The notes beneath the pieces were generated by a model. It made no database searches. It worked only from the letters and a program-made list of their open reading frames with translations, and was not told where the DNA came from. A DNA stretch of 24,096 nt from a virus, in IMG/VR virus record IMGVR_UViG_3300000313_000013, positions 1 through 24,096 of that record; one strand, given 5' to 3'. This document shows positions 6,893 to 14,698 of this stretch, in pieces; the first letter of the stretch is position 1, and each line of letters begins with the position of its first letter. The translations under genes and the position numbers were made by a program.

Positions 6893-9340
6893 ATGCCCTC
6901 TTGCACTCGTTGCAAGCTTCACGAGTACGCCAACACTGTCTGCTTGCTCGGGTCGGGATCGGCCGTCAAGCGAGTGATGATCGTCGGCGAGGCGCCTGGT
7001 GAAGAAGAGGACAACCAAGGCAAGCCTTTCGTCGGTCGATCAGGCCAGATGCTCAACGAGATGCTCGAAGCCGTGGGTGTCGACCGAGAGGAGGTGTATG
7101 TCACCAACGCCGTCCATTGTCGGCCGCCGGACAATCGCACGCCCGACAAGAAGGAGATTGGCCAGTGTGACTACTGGCTCAAGAAAGAGATCGCTAAGGT
7201 AAAGCCCCGGTTCATCCTCACGCTCGGCAACGTCGCGGTGTTCGCGTTGACGGGAACCAAAGGTATCAAAGAGCTTCGCGGCAAGCCAATCGAGAAGAAG
7301 GGTACCGATCTCGGCCTTGAGACGGACGAGACGGTGTATGTGTTCCCGGCCTACCACCCGTCCTATGCGTTACGCGATCCGCGCAATCGACCGGTCCTCG
7401 AGCGCGACATCGCGCAATTCTTCGAGCTCGTGCGCAATGGCAAACCTAAGGCCGAAGAAGGACTACGCGTTCGCATCATCCTGTCGCGTGACGAGCTAGA
7501 AGAGGCCATCGAAGATATCCACCAGAACGACTTGCTGTCCTGGGACACTGAGACGTCTGGACTCGACCCATTCGCTCCTGGCGCGTGGATGACTTCCTTT
7601 GGCGTTGGCACGCACAAGTACCAGTGGTGCCTCCCGCTCAACCACCCAGAGGGCCCGATCTATCAGAAGTTCAACACGCAGAAGCGATGGGTGAAACAGC
7701 TGGTAACGGCGATGCGCGGTAAGACCATCGTCGCGCAGAACGGCAAATTCGACTCGCTGACTCTGCGTGTCTTGTTTGGCGAACGACTGCTAACAGACTT
7801 CGACACGATGCTCGCCCACTACCAACTCGACGAGAATTCCTATCATGGGCTAGATCACCTCGCGAGCCACTACTTCGGTGCATCGGAGTATGACATACCG
7901 CTCAAGGAGAAGCATGGTTTCGGTCCGCTCGACCGACACTGCAAGTATCTCGCACAAGACCTGAACTTCACGCGACGGCTGTATTACGTGCTGAAGAAAG
8001 AACTCGCCAAGGATCCAGCCACAGAGCGTCTGTTCTACGAGCTGACGATGCCTGTGGCGCGCATGTATGCAGACGCCGAATTCAACGGCGTCTATGTTGA
8101 TCCGAAGAAACTCAAGGACGCGTGGAAGTATTGGGACAACATCGAGAAGGAGAAGCTCGCTGAATTGAACAGGCTCGTGCCAGATGACCGGACACGCAAG
8201 AACAAGAAGACCAAAGAGATTGTCGTCGGCATCAACTGGAATTCGGCGCAACAGGTCGCAGACGTCTTATTCAATCGCTTTGGTTTGAAGCCGCTCGAGA
8301 TGACAAACGGGGGCAAAGGCGAACCCAAGCCAAGTGTGTCTGAGTCGGTACTGCTGCGCCTTGCTGACAAGTCACCGATCCCGCGACTGTTGCTCGACTA
8401 CCGTGAGGCCGTCAAGAACAAAGGAACTTTCGTAGAAGGGTGGATGAAGAGGTGTTATGACAATCGGATGCACCCGACCTTCAAAGTTCATGGCACTGTC
8501 ACAGGACGCCCGAGCTGCGAAGAGCCCAACCTTCAGCAAACGCCGCGCGACGCGCGCCTACGCAGCCTAATTACCGCACCCCCCGGATGGACATTGATCG
8601 ACGCCGACCTGTCGCAAGCTGAGCTACGTATCACCGCCGAGATGTCCGGTGATCGTGAGCTCAAACTCAGTTACCAAACTGGCGTAGATGTCCACACGCT
8701 GACAGTGCAGCGTATCTTCGGCATCATGAAGCCGACGAAGGAAGAACGCAAGAAAGGTAAAGCGATCAACTTCGGCTTTGTGTATGGCATGGGCTGGAAG
8801 AAATTTAAGGACTACGCGCGCGACAACTATGGCGTGGACTTCACAGACGCCGAGTGCAAGCGGATCAGGAAATACTTCTTCCGCCTATATAATGGTCTGC
8901 CCGACTGGCATATGCGTCAACGCAGGTTCGCCAACCGAAATGGCTACGTGCGCTCGATCATCGGACGCAAGCGTCGCCTACCTGAAGCGCAGTTGACAGG
9001 CAGCGATCCCCACACTGAGATGAGGAAAGCCGAGGCCGAGCGTCAGGCCATCAACTCGCCTGTCCAATCGCTCGCAAGCGACATCAACTTGCTTGCAACC
9101 GTCCAGCTCCATCGGGAGTTTGGTGAGACTGACTATTTCCGCATGATCGGCACGATCCACGATGCCATCTTGATGGAAATACGAGACGACATGGTCGATA
9201 CCGTGCTGCCTCGCGTCAAGCAAGCGATGGAGTGGCCTGACAAGTTCAACGAGTGGGATATTCGGATGTCCGTCCCCATAATCGCAGAAATCGAGTGGGG
9301 TCCGTGGGGCGCAGGAACAGTGTGGGAGCCAAACAAGTGA
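6893..9340 (+). CDS. family-4 uracil-DNA glycosylase fused to A-family DNA polymerase
   Basis: This is an 815-residue fusion. Residues 1-180 are a family-4 UDG: four Fe-S cysteines (C4, C7, C76, C92), GEAPGEEED (32-40) followed by KPFVGRSGQ, and HPSYAL (155-160). Residues 195-375 are a 3'-5' exonuclease: WDTETSGLD (D218, E220), NGKFD (N283, D287) and YLAQD (Y352, D356). The rest is Pol I: motif A DADLSQAELR (D572), motif B RKKGKAINFGFVYG (R619, K623, F627, Y631) and motif C HDAILME (H756, D757, E762). There is no 5'-nuclease domain. It is the likely replicative polymerase, with uracil removal built in. All catalytic residues appear intact, and the fusion lies in one uninterrupted frame. Confidence 0.95.
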   Translation: MPSCTRCKLHEYANTVCLLGSGSAVKRVMIVGEAPGEEEDNQGKPFVGRSGQMLNEMLEAVGVDREEVYVTNAVHCRPPDNRTPDKKEIGQCDYWLKKEIAKVKPRFILTLGNVAVFALTGTKGIKELRGKPIEKKGTDLGLETDETVYVFPAYHPSYALRDPRNRPVLERDIAQFFELVRNGKPKAEEGLRVRIILSRDELEEAIEDIHQNDLLSWDTETSGLDPFAPGAWMTSFGVGTHKYQWCLPLNHPEGPIYQKFNTQKRWVKQLVTAMRGKTIVAQNGKFDSLTLRVLFGERLLTDFDTMLAHYQLDENSYHGLDHLASHYFGASEYDIPLKEKHGFGPLDRHCKYLAQDLNFTRRLYYVLKKELAKDPATERLFYELTMPVARMYADAEFNGVYVDPKKLKDAWKYWDNIEKEKLAELNRLVPDDRTRKNKKTKEIVVGINWNSAQQVADVLFNRFGLKPLEMTNGGKGEPKPSVSESVLLRLADKSPIPRLLLDYREAVKNKGTFVEGWMKRCYDNRMHPTFKVHGTVTGRPSCEEPNLQQTPRDARLRSLITAPPGWTLIDADLSQAELRITAEMSGDRELKLSYQTGVDVHTLTVQRIFGIMKPTKEERKKGKAINFGFVYGMGWKKFKDYARDNYGVDFTDAECKRIRKYFFRLYNGLPDWHMRQRRFANRNGYVRSIIGRKRRLPEAQLTGSDPHTEMRKAEAERQAINSPVQSLASDINLLATVQLHREFGETDYFRMIGTIHDAILMEIRDDMVDTVLPRVKQAMEWPDKFNEWDIRMSVPIIAEIEWGPWGAGTVWEPNK

Positions 9341-11510: not shown

Positions 11511-12308
11511 ATGGCCAGAAAGCCGAAGTCGTCCGGGCTGAGCATCGACTTCTCGGGGGTAGAGGCACGGGTCCTCGTTCCCGAGGGTGACTACAAGGTC
11601 AAGCCCACCGAAGTCACGAAGGAAGACGGCAACGAATTCCCCTACCTCGCCTGGACCTTCGAGATCACCGACGGCAAGTTCGCCGAGAAGAACCTCTACA
11701 CCAACACGTCGCTGGCGCCGAAGGCCCTGTGGAACCTCCGCAGCCTGCTCGAGGCCATGGGTATCGAGGTGCCCGACGGCGTGATGGAGCTCGACCTCAA
11801 GGGGATCATCAGCGAGGCCGGCGAGTTCTTCGTCACGGTCGAGCACGAGAAGTACGAGGGCAAGCCCCGGCCGCGCATCGTCGACTACTTCCCGGCCGAC
11901 GAAGAGGACGAGAAGAAGGACGACACGCCGGCGAGCAAGAAGAAGGACAGCAAGCCGGCCGGCAAGGGCAAGACGGAGGAGAAGGAGGAAGAGCCCGACT
12001 TCTCCGAGATGGACAAAGACGAGCTGGTCGAGTTCATCGATGCCCACGACCTCGACGTGGACGCCGACGACTTCCCGAAGCTGTCCAAGCTGCGCGCCGC
12101 CGTCGAGAAGGCGTGGGAGGAGCGCGACGAGGACGGCGGGGGCGACGGCGAGAAGTACTCCGAGGACGCCATCAACGAGATGGGCACCAAGGAGCTGCAG
12201 GCCATCGTGGACAAGCACAAGCTGGACGTCGAGCTCGAAGGCACGACCAAGGCCAAGCGTCGCGCTGTCCTGAAGGCCCTCAAGGCCGAGGACCTGATCG
12301 AGGAATAA
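11511..12308 (+). CDS. DUF669-like ssDNA-binding candidate with two C-terminal SAP/HeH-like repeats
   Basis: This is a 265-residue protein with a good AGGAG site. Residues 1-128 resemble the phage DUF669 family: VPEGDYKVKPTEVTKEDGN, then EITDGKFAEKNLY and a Trp-containing helix. These proteins sit beside Sak4/RecT-like genes and are thought to bind ssDNA. A long Lys/Glu/Asp linker (129-165) leads to two similar helical units, M167-W202 (MDKDELVEFIDAHDLDVDAD) and M224-E265 (MGTKELQAIVDKHKLDVELE), which look like HeH/SAP or Rho-N-type nucleic-acid-binding motifs. Almost every codon ends in G or C, unlike its neighbours, which points to strong expression or separate origin. It has its own candidate promoter and terminator. 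Confidence 0.78.
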   Translation: MARKPKSSGLSIDFSGVEARVLVPEGDYKVKPTEVTKEDGNEFPYLAWTFEITDGKFAEKNLYTNTSLAPKALWNLRSLLEAMGIEVPDGVMELDLKGIISEAGEFFVTVEHEKYEGKPRPRIVDYFPADEEDEKKDDTPASKKKDSKPAGKGKTEEKEEEPDFSEMDKDELVEFIDAHDLDVDADDFPKLSKLRAAVEKAWEERDEDGGGDGEKYSEDAINEMGTKELQAIVDKHKLDVELEGTTKAKRRAVLKALKAEDLIEE

Positions 12309-12326
12309 CGCTTCACCTTCGGCGGG

Positions 12327-12356
12327 GGCGGGTTGTCGAAAGGCAGCCCGCCTTTT
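12327..12356 (+). terminator. rho-independent terminator after the DUF669-like gene
   Basis: An 11-base-pair stem (12327-12337 with 12342-12352, two G-U pairs) closes a GAAA loop and is followed by TTTTCT. It begins 18 bases after the stop codon. The GNRA-type loop and U-tract are classic. The next ORF's ATG (12359) sits immediately behind it. Confidence 0.88.
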
Positions 12357-12358
12357 CT

Positions 12359-12739
12359 ATGGCAGTATGGACTCCCAAGTTCGGACACGTTTCGCTGACA
12401 CCTCGCAAGCTCGCCGAGTTGCAGGAATTGGTATTCTTCTATCGAGGGCATGTCGATTTGTCCTCGATGCCGATAGGCCCCGGCGCCGCGAGAGTGTGGA
12501 GGAAATGCGCATGGTTCACCATCCGCGGCCTCATGGACATCCAGCCATCGCCAGACATGACATCCACTCATTACGTCGCAGTAGTCACGCAACTCGGCTA
12601 TGTAGTTGCCGGAGCGAAGCCTAATGAAGAAACCGGAAAGCCGACTCGTGTCAGACGTAAGGACGCGTTTATCCGACGAAATTGGCGGCAGGTGGTTAAA
12701 GGTCCATGGCGGGCCATTCCAAGAGGCAGGCGTAAGTGA
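12359..12739 (+). CDS. putative small winged-helix-like protein
   Basis: This is a 126-residue ORF starting at the ATG directly behind the terminator; no ribosome-binding site is visible, so a later start is possible. Amino-acid composition and codon use look coding in this frame and poor in the other two. The pattern LTPRKLAELQELVFFYRG, then FTIRGLMDIQP, then HYVAVVTQLGYVVAG resembles a wHTH, comparable in layout to the protein ending at 916. The last ~38 residues are very basic (ending RAIPRGRRK) and overlap the VRR-NUC gene by 116 bases in another frame. The function is unknown; a DNA-binding regulator is one reading. Confidence 0.5.
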   Translation: MAVWTPKFGHVSLTPRKLAELQELVFFYRGHVDLSSMPIGPGAARVWRKCAWFTIRGLMDIQPSPDMTSTHYVAVVTQLGYVVAGAKPNEETGKPTRVRRKDAFIRRNWRQVVKGPWRAIPRGRRK

Positions 12740-13124
12740 CCTCGTGGGATGCGTTTTTGGCTACTACGTGGCTATCGAGGTTAAGACCCCACAGGACCGT
12801 CGGCCGGACAACCCCTTGCAGGTCAAGTGGATCGATGATATCCGCGCCAACGGCGGGTGCGCGTTCATCACCTACTCGGCTTCGGCTGCGTGCCGCCGAG
12901 TAAAGGCTTTCCTACTGTCGCACGATAGGGACGGGTCTATCCATGAGGCTCTTGAAGCGCGATCTGTATCCGTATCAACGTCGGGCTGCCGTGCTCGCCG
13001 GAAAGCAGAAGTCATTCGCGTTGTGGATGGACCCAGGAACGGGGAAGACCATCGTCTCTCTGAAAGTGATCGCCGTCCGGTGGCGAAGGAACTCACTGCG
13101 CCTGGTGTTAGTCGTCGCCCCTAA
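12624..13124 (+). CDS. VRR-NUC family nuclease
   Basis: This 166-residue protein starts at ATG 12624, with GGAG about ten bases before it. The N-terminal 105 residues fit the VRR-NUC fold of the PD-(D/E)XK class: an ESRL helix, KVHGGPFQEAGVSDLVG with the catalytic Asp, YYVAIEVKT with the E-x-K pair, then a QVKWIDDIRANGG helix. Such domains cut structured DNA (for example FAN1) and in phages often lie next to SNF2 helicases, as here. The remaining ~60 residues overlap the helicase gene in another frame for 182 bases and look like unstructured read-out, so the domain may simply lack a stop where expected. Confidence 0.82.
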   Translation: MKKPESRLVSDVRTRLSDEIGGRWLKVHGGPFQEAGVSDLVGCVFGYYVAIEVKTPQDRRPDNPLQVKWIDDIRANGGCAFITYSASAACRRVKAFLLSHDRDGSIHEALEARSVSVSTSGCRARRKAEVIRVVDGPRNGEDHRLSESDRRPVAKELTAPGVSRRP

Positions 13125-14334
13125 ATCTGTCCTCGGCGTCTGGCGACATCAAGCGAAGCAACACCTCGCCGTCCCCCACCGCGTGCTGATCGGTAAAGAG
13201 CACCTGATGACGCGACGGTCGCTGATCGACCCGGGACAGGTAACCTTCCTCGTCCTCAACTATGAGCAGGTCTGGCGAGTGGCGCAACGCCTCAAGAAAA
13301 TGCCTTGGGACATGGTGGTCGCTGACGAGGCGCACAGGCTCCGTCACAAGAACTCGCGGCAGTCTAAGGCGGTGTGGCGTATAGGCCAGCGTGCGGCGTT
13401 TAAGCTCGCTTTGACGGGTACTCCAATCGGCAAGGACGAGCGCGACCTGTGGGCTCAGTTCAGGTTTCTTGACGACTCGATACTAGGATCGGCGTGGAAG
13501 GCCTTCGAAAAGAAATACATGAGGCGGACGTGGATCGGTCCGCCCGGGGCGCAATGGCCAAAGGTGAGGCTAAAGCCCAACGCGGGTGAACGCATCACTC
13601 GAGCGGTGGCTGACTATGTCTATTCGATCCGAGCTGAAGACGCATTGGGATTACCACCTGCGACAGACACGGCGTTGACTTTCGACCTGACGTTTAAGGC
13701 TGCCGAAGCTTATCGCAAGATCGAAAATGACTTCGCTTATGAGTTCAACGGCTTGGTTAGTAGCACGCCATTGGCTATCACGCGGATGCTTCGGCTGCAT
13801 CAACTCGCAGGGGGTCACCTTGGCACCGATGAAGGTAAAGTACTCGAGTTCAATCAGGACAAACTCGACACGCTCACTGATTGGCTGGAGGATTTACCAC
13901 AGGGCGAGAAGCTTGTCGTCTTCGCTCAGTTCACTCAAGAGATAGATCGCATCGCTGCCTTGATGACGCGTGTTGGCCGATCTTATGCGATACGAGACGG
14001 CCGCACGTCAAAGAAAGACGCAGATCGATGGATCGACTTTCAGGAAAAGAAACACCCAAGTACTTACATCGCCCAAGTTGCGAGCGGGGGAATAGGCGTA
14101 GACTTGTTCGCTGCGAGGTTCGGCGTATTCTACTCTGCGTCATTCAGTTACATCGACTATGAGCAATGCCGAAGGCGCCTGCTGCGCAACGGTCAGACGC
14201 GTCCCGTTAGTTTTATCCACATGGTGGCCCGGAACACTATTGACGAGGACCTATACAGCGCCTTACAAGGGACAGGCGTGATCGCCGATCAGGTCCTGCA
14301 GCGGTTGCAGGATCGCCGGCGGCGCAATCGGTGA
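12943..14334 (+). CDS. SNF2-type DEAD-like helicase/translocase
   Basis: This is a 463-residue superfamily-2 ATPase. Visible motifs are LYPYQRRAA (8-16, Q-motif region), MDPGTGKT (29-36, motif I), VVAPKS, ADEAHRLRH (127-135, motif II, DEAH), LTGTP (motif III), VVFAQFTQ in the second lobe, ASGGIGVDL (motif V) and QCRRRLLRNGQTRP (motif VI, the QxxRRxxRxGQ form typical of SNF2). The start at 12943 is needed to keep the Q-motif, and it overlaps the VRR-NUC ORF by 182 bases. The protein likely acts with that nuclease in replication-fork remodelling or repair; this pairing recurs in phages. It ends in a strongly basic tail (RRRRNR). Confidence 0.92.
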   Translation: MRLLKRDLYPYQRRAAVLAGKQKSFALWMDPGTGKTIVSLKVIAVRWRRNSLRLVLVVAPKSVLGVWRHQAKQHLAVPHRVLIGKEHLMTRRSLIDPGQVTFLVLNYEQVWRVAQRLKKMPWDMVVADEAHRLRHKNSRQSKAVWRIGQRAAFKLALTGTPIGKDERDLWAQFRFLDDSILGSAWKAFEKKYMRRTWIGPPGAQWPKVRLKPNAGERITRAVADYVYSIRAEDALGLPPATDTALTFDLTFKAAEAYRKIENDFAYEFNGLVSSTPLAITRMLRLHQLAGGHLGTDEGKVLEFNQDKLDTLTDWLEDLPQGEKLVVFAQFTQEIDRIAALMTRVGRSYAIRDGRTSKKDADRWIDFQEKKHPSTYIAQVASGGIGVDLFAARFGVFYSASFSYIDYEQCRRRLLRNGQTRPVSFIHMVARNTIDEDLYSALQGTGVIADQVLQRLQDRRRRNR

Positions 14335-14347
14335 AGGAGCTGCAGCG

Positions 14348-14698
14348 ATGGCTAAGGCCGCGAAGGAAAAGGACAAGGAGCCCGAGAAGAAGGGCGGCGC
14401 TACCCCGTTCAAGTCGGTCGAGTTCGGCGTCAAGAAGCTGGCCGAGACCGAGGACCTCAAGGGCATGAAGGCGTCGGACATTCGCGTGCTGCTGCGCGGC
14501 GACGATGAGCTTCGGGAGGAGTTCCGCAAGGACGACAACTGGGACTTCGGCAACCAGAAGAACGTCGACCGGGTCGCCAAGAAGCTGAAGAAGGCGCACG
14601 CCGAACGGCAGGCCAAGCGGGCCGCGGCCAACTCCGCCGGCAAGGACGAGGAGGAGAAGGACGAGAAGCTGGCCGCGAAGGGCAAGGGCAAGAAGTAA
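14348..14698 (+). CDS. Lys/Glu-rich small protein, last early gene
   Basis: This is a 116-residue protein with GGAG before its ATG. Both ends are Lys-rich and low in complexity (AKAAKEKDKEPEKKGG at the start, AAKGKGKK at the end). Between them is a folded-looking helical core (residues 20-85) with FGVKKLAETEDLKGMKASDI and VDRVAKKLKKAHAERQAKRA. The layout recalls small abundant nucleic-acid-binding or nucleoid proteins, but no family is recognised. Codons end almost only in G or C, as in the DUF669-like gene and unlike the helicase gene just upstream, which suggests high expression. A terminator follows. Confidence 0.75.
   Translation: MAKAAKEKDKEPEKKGGATPFKSVEFGVKKLAETEDLKGMKASDIRVLLRGDDELREEFRKDDNWDFGNQKNVDRVAKKLKKAHAERQAKRAAANSAGKDEEEKDEKLAAKGKGKK

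Follow-up and report, generated by a model that had tools for sequence, protein, structure and literature searches.

The closest described relatives of the nuclease considered here are the stand-alone VRR-NUC nucleases stNUC, saNUC and psNUC (PF08774), with which it shares the catalytic D, E-x-K and Q columns and a profile match to the structures 4qbo, 4qbn and 4qbl, as well as a fold match to 4qbn. Unlike these enzymes, it scores below the Pfam cut-off and adds a C-terminal helix and a tail encoded within a helicase gene. The helicase matches the phage SNF2-family helicases (PF00176, phrog_62) over nearly its full length, and in several annotated phages such a gene likewise comes after a VRR-NUC or nuclease gene. 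In our case, however, both reading frames run through the Walker A region, whereas two annotated examples overlap by 11 and 14 nt.

Two described phenomena offer a frame for such an arrangement. Long same-strand overlaps in prokaryotes have been ascribed to stop-codon mutation (PMC2174442) and share with this locus an upstream ORF that enters the next gene out of frame; in contrast to that account, the tail in two clades of relatives (C and D, below) and the stop position in clade C are selected. In Listeria phage PSA, +1 frameshifting joins phage protein products through the +1 frame, as here the next gene lies in the +1 frame. A proline codon is the site at which ribosomes shift into the second frame in PSA (PMC5009743), whereas our helicase has a start of its own.

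Three overlapping genes in the window

The window is a complete virus record of 24,096 bases, in which the following features were distinguished:

12359..12739, + strand: ORF A, an open frame of 126 aa (ATG 12359, stop 12739) whose last 116 nt lie within VRR-NUC
12624..12739, + strand: overlap of ORF A and VRR-NUC, 116 nt (chance P 0.18)
12624..13124, + strand: VRR-NUC nuclease, 166 aa (ATG 12624, stop codon 13122-13124), predicted PD-(D/E)XK fold with a C-terminal tail
12927..12934, + strand: SD-like AGGGACGG inside VRR-NUC, 8 nt 5' of the helicase ATG (duplex -6.6 kcal/mol)
12942..12980, + strand: end of the last predicted helix in the VRR-NUC tail (residues 107-119, AlphaFold2), with no structure predicted from there to 13121
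12943..13124, + strand: overlap of VRR-NUC and helicase, 182 nt, including the Walker A codons (GTGKT; chance P 0.29)
12943..14334, + strand: SNF2-family helicase, 463 aa (ATG 12943)

Reading of the window sequence bore out the coordinates and overlap lengths (116 and 182 nt) reported in the first-pass annotation, together with its +1 shift at each step, ORF A, VRR-NUC and the helicase occupying frames 2, 0 and 1. The 5' ends of the two downstream genes are firm: the nuclease opens with the family-conserved [A]KKPESRL, and in the helicase frame a stop lies ~39 nt upstream of 12943, the intervening sequence lacking any start codon. Because the downstream proteins align with their relatives throughout the overlaps, an indel cannot account for them. 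The overlaps are true, with both frames intact.

The helicase contains SNF2-related and Helicase_C domains (PF00176, 85.1 bits against a cut-off of 24.9; PF00271, 33.4 bits against 23.5) and matches phrog_62 at E 1.5e-107. Its SD is modest, since 10% of the ATG and GTG codons in the loci of clades C and D have values of -6.1 kcal/mol or lower; the corresponding values are -5.8 kcal/mol at the VRR-NUC ATG and a weak -2.3 kcal/mol at that of ORF A. The VRR-NUC and helicase frames are jointly open for only ~39 nt upstream of the helicase ATG, and inspection of this stretch by eye for slippery sites gave no sign of frameshifting in the window. The nuclease-helicase fusion by frameshifting that had been suggested is thus unsupported there, given the helicase's own ATG and SD-like stretch and the shortness of the shared open frame.

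ORF A had been described as winged-helix-like, an assignment that we could not confirm: searches of Pfam and PHROG at E 0.1 gave no match, and neither did tblastn against phage records at E 1. Between ORF A and the preceding DUF669-like gene, at ~12321-12356, a strong GC hairpin followed by TTTTCT (-25.4 kcal/mol) resembles a terminator and is absent from the output of a terminator scan.

The nuclease matches PF08774 with E 0.0038 and 17.7 bits, under the gathering cut-off of 23.8, and we therefore call it VRR-NUC-like by fold and profile rather than a Pfam member. It also matches phrog_93 (E 6.2e-14) and, by profile comparison, the solved VRR-NUC structures; its predicted model aligned with 4qbn_A at E 3.2e-4 and a target TM of 0.71, and the PD-(D/E)XK catalytic residues D39, E52, K54 and Q66 are unchanged across 25 sequences. 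AlphaFold2 modelled the protein confidently to about residue 119, with a helix at 105-119 that spans the helicase ATG, and predicted no structure for residues 121-166 (block pLDDT 41-63). The view of the tail as unstructured, basic read-out after the domain is therefore partly right for VRR-NUC. On this model the first dozen or so residues of the tail probably complete the last helix, while the rest may be dispensable. We detected no clear homologue of the tail among the loci compared (best E 0.066). For clade C, the predicted VRR-NUC has helices at 106-121 and 143-154, with moderate to low confidence.

How long such overlaps become by chance was gauged by redrawing the codons of the downstream gene synonymously in 5000 trials per overlap. 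The ORF A/VRR-NUC overlap was matched or exceeded (>=116 nt) in 18% of trials (median 44) and the VRR-NUC/helicase overlap (>=182 nt) in 29% (median 104), so that the lengths of the window overlaps alone are unremarkable and prove nothing. The same kind of test across 61 loci, which presumes a +1 frame and is unsuited to the one locus in +2 (L107), gave a median P of 0.076, with 0.000 to 0.18 in clade C and up to 1.0 in loci with short overlaps.

The base composition of the VRR-NUC/helicase overlap in the window tracks the helicase frame. GC content as the sole cause of long overlaps was rejected, since a locus at 45% GC (L052) retains a 233-nt overlap. A foreign composition of the gene cassette was also rejected, the exceptional genes being the two that flank it: third-position GC is 0.93 in the DUF669-like gene (11511-12308) and in the lysine-rich gene after the helicase (14348-14698), compared with 0.63-0.75 in the other genes measured.

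Frame relation and overlap length among relatives

Scans and phage records yielded 128 loci with both genes, of which 61 were retained after removal of 67 with an identical junction stretch; this set still includes near-identical loci (for example L023 and L032, at 97%), and 30 helicase loci for which no VRR-NUC was found just upstream were excluded from the counts. The helicase lies in the +1 frame relative to VRR-NUC in 60 of the 61 loci, the exception being L107 (+2), and none of the 61 carries an in-frame fusion. Measured from the helicase model start, the overlap is 1-53 nt in 11 loci, 131-200 nt in 24 (including the window), 233 or 236 nt in 25 and 287 nt in one. Relatives with ordinary short overlaps, and a single indel to explain the long ones, were looked for as the finding that would undo the arrangement. 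Instead, 50 of the 61 loci overlap by 131-287 nt, the short overlaps (<60 nt) are mostly in the +1 frame too, and a single indel is excluded because the downstream gene, which such a change would disrupt, is intact. If the ATG/GTG/TTG at 2179 is taken as the helicase start, a distant locus recovered by motif scan (L175) has an overlap of 17 nt, again with a +1 step. The frame relation between VRR-NUC and helicase is old, since it is kept in nearly all of the pairs examined.

As a control, we considered 13 VRR-NUC loci without a detected helicase (several of them near-identical), in which the ORF ends 33-48 nt past the end of the VRR-NUC model; L020, which is cut at the junction, was excluded. 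In paired loci the ORF ends 150-243 nt past the model end in 26 of 27, and 27 nt past it in L009.

Clade C comprises the 22 loci whose helicase is at least 55% identical to that of L023, and in all 22 the nuclease terminates at the same point, 233 nt into the helicase gene. Defining the clade by helicase identity gives the same 22 loci as defining it by the 233-nt stop position, which avoids circularity. Three Brevundimonas-type loci follow at 48-49% identity, with nucleases ending at 233, 233 and 236, and all remaining loci are at most 37% identical to L023. Clade D consists of 11 loci with a helicase at least 66% identical to that of L004 and overlaps of 143-158 nt. The window helicase is 29% identical to L023 and 27% to L004, so that these clades bear on the window only indirectly.

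Searches with the helicase or VRR-NUC recovered no close relatives of the window, and a search with the polymerase found two distant loci at 33-43% identity. The window's DNA polymerase (6893-9340) itself has an N-terminal domain of the uracil-DNA-glycosylase superfamily ahead of its exonuclease and family A polymerase domains. Four of the clade D loci that were inspected show a further out-of-frame overlap, between the helicase ORF and the gene that follows it, at 4217-4445 in L004 (229 nt), 1763-1982 in L156 (220 nt), 4211-4292 in L014 (82 nt) and 2925-3006 in L157 (82 nt).

Selection on the tail and helicase starts in clades C and D

Selection was assessed on codon alignments, in which third-position changes silent in the helicase were classified according to their consequence for the nuclease sequence; the intervals given for N/S are bootstraps over columns, and the sequence pairs are not independent. 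Within the clade C overlap, N was 0.135, S 0.338 and stop-creating changes 0.025, giving an N/S of 0.40 [0.29-0.54], compared with 0.260, 0.231 and 0.278, respectively, and an N/S of 1.13 [0.95-1.38] downstream. Clade D behaved in the same way, with an N/S of 0.42 [0.30-0.62] in the overlap and 1.11 [0.89-1.51] downstream, and stop-creating silent changes at 0.024 versus 0.214. No sliding downstream window had an N/S as low as the overlap, either in clade C (0/279) or in clade D (0/378), and disjoint pairs gave 0.27 in the overlap versus 1.24 downstream in clade C (11 pairs) and 0.32 versus 1.31 in clade D (5 pairs). Codon identity in the overlap was 0.676 in clade C, where downstream windows reached at most 0.473, and 0.657 in clade D, where one downstream stretch equalled it (up to 0.659). 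Constraint was strongest at codons 15-30 in clade C (N/S 0.19); the far end of the clade D tail (codons 30-46) was weakly constrained (N/S 0.74). The three Brevundimonas-type loci, which lack statistical power, gave a non-significant N/S of 0.87 [0.26-1.51]. Judged from these substitution patterns, the VRR-NUC tail is translated and selected as a dual-coding sequence in clades C and D.

The nuclease stop in clade C is TGA, TAG or, once, TAA, and is produced via 11 different helicase codon pairs, with the wobble position of a CGT, CTT or CAT codon supplying its T in all 22 loci. This pattern indicates that the position of the stop is itself under selection in this clade. Near the 3' end of the clade C helicase, at alignment columns 454-485, codon identity climbs to 0.70, which may point to a further overlap or to some regulatory element.

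In each of the 11 clade D loci the helicase has a start within VRR-NUC, located at -42 or -6, whose SD is -10.9 to -11.7 kcal/mol. In clade C there is no helicase start codon at a conserved position near the 5' end, and in four loci (L023, L032, L054 and L077) none occurs from -130 to +100. The helicase frame is nevertheless open from -141 to -42 in all 22 loci, for which the mean chance is 0.45 (0.22-0.63 per locus); as the loci are related, these chances were not pooled into a combined P, and they are used in place of the stop-creating count, which in this upstream stretch is near zero by construction, all 22 being open. An ATG or GTG lies between -216 and -141 in every one of the 22 loci. 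The SDs there are modest, but such weakness decides nothing, VRR-NUC's own starts in this clade often being weak as well. Amino-acid constraint in the helicase frame starts only at about -40. The open upstream frame fits a clade C helicase start that lies further inside VRR-NUC, and frameshifting, while conceivable, is not needed.

Competing explanations and significance of the overlap

The first-pass annotation had offered true overlapping tails, lost stop codons and ribosomal frameshifting as options. The first is the best supported, given purifying selection in two clades and a +1 step at 60 of the 61 loci, and we consider it likely that separately started same-strand genes truly overlap here, in a frame relation that is old in the family and with a tail that is dual-coding in two clades. 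A ribosome translating VRR-NUC would pass the helicase start without changing frame and terminate at 13122-13124, and the nuclease, if made, would carry a tail of ~60 residues whose coding DNA also specifies the N-terminus and Walker A loop of the helicase. Initiation of the helicase at ATG 12943 would be the work of other ribosomes, and the overlap may couple synthesis of the two proteins. VRR-NUC probably acts beside the SNF2 helicase as a Holliday-junction-type nuclease that processes junctions during phage recombination or replication.

A neutral origin, in which a point mutation removed the stop codon of the window's VRR-NUC (and that of ORF A), translation continues to whichever stop comes next by chance and the resulting tails have no use, is a serious contender, although we lean against it. 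The window overlaps fall within chance lengths, most of the VRR-NUC tail has no predicted structure, and stop-codon mutation is one published account of long same-strand overlaps (PMC2174442). The window's own tails may indeed have arisen through lost stop codons, but the frame relation seen there is common to 59 of the 60 other loci, and two distantly related clades have tails under selection. Programmed +1 (or -2) frameshifting that fuses VRR-NUC to the helicase could draw on clade C, where a conserved nearby helicase start is missing, four loci have none over a long stretch, and helicase constraint from about -40 would also be expected from a shift near that point. We nonetheless regard it as highly improbable, since the window helicase has its own ATG and SD-like stretch, the open frame and upstream ATG or GTG of all 22 clade C loci fit an internal start, and a shift so far upstream would truncate the nuclease before its E-x-K residues. 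Sequencing or assembly error is scarcely credible: the window is a single metagenomic contig of which no independent copy was found, but its VRR-NUC and helicase frames run intact through the overlaps, so that no indel lies there, and the same arrangement occurs in other contigs and in two isolate genomes.

Beyond the reading of separately started, overlapping genes that we prefer, we tentatively propose a wider one that is, as a whole, on the unlikely side. The locus would be a widespread and poorly annotated dual-coding module, in which VRR-NUC has a selected C-terminal tail, with a fixed stop, encoded across the Walker A region of the neighbouring helicase, and synthesis and evolution of the two proteins are linked. 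In one clade the helicase would be initiated far within the nuclease gene (or translated after a frameshift), with most of that gene read in two frames, and the window would be a diverged member.

Three of the annotated records examined have the long overlap (L002, L003 and L004). The VRR-NUC gene is missing from two of them, which are cultured Brevundimonas phages, and another frame is annotated at that place in the third (MW202777). A small gene ahead of VRR-NUC in L002, at 1926-2195, may resemble the anti-CBASS protein Acb2. A common gene caller restricts same-strand overlaps, and no account of a VRR-NUC/helicase overlap appeared in the titles or abstract openings of the matches listed among open PMC papers. 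Since the nuclease gene is absent or replaced by another frame in all three records, such VRR-NUC genes may be undercounted, and the arrangement is easily missed by genome annotation.

The overlap traverses the highly conserved Walker A loop, and the cultured Brevundimonas phages make the tail testable. It is difficult to demonstrate that long same-strand overlaps are selected, and here the substitution patterns in the tail of two clades, together with the stop position in one, provide direct evolutionary evidence of it.
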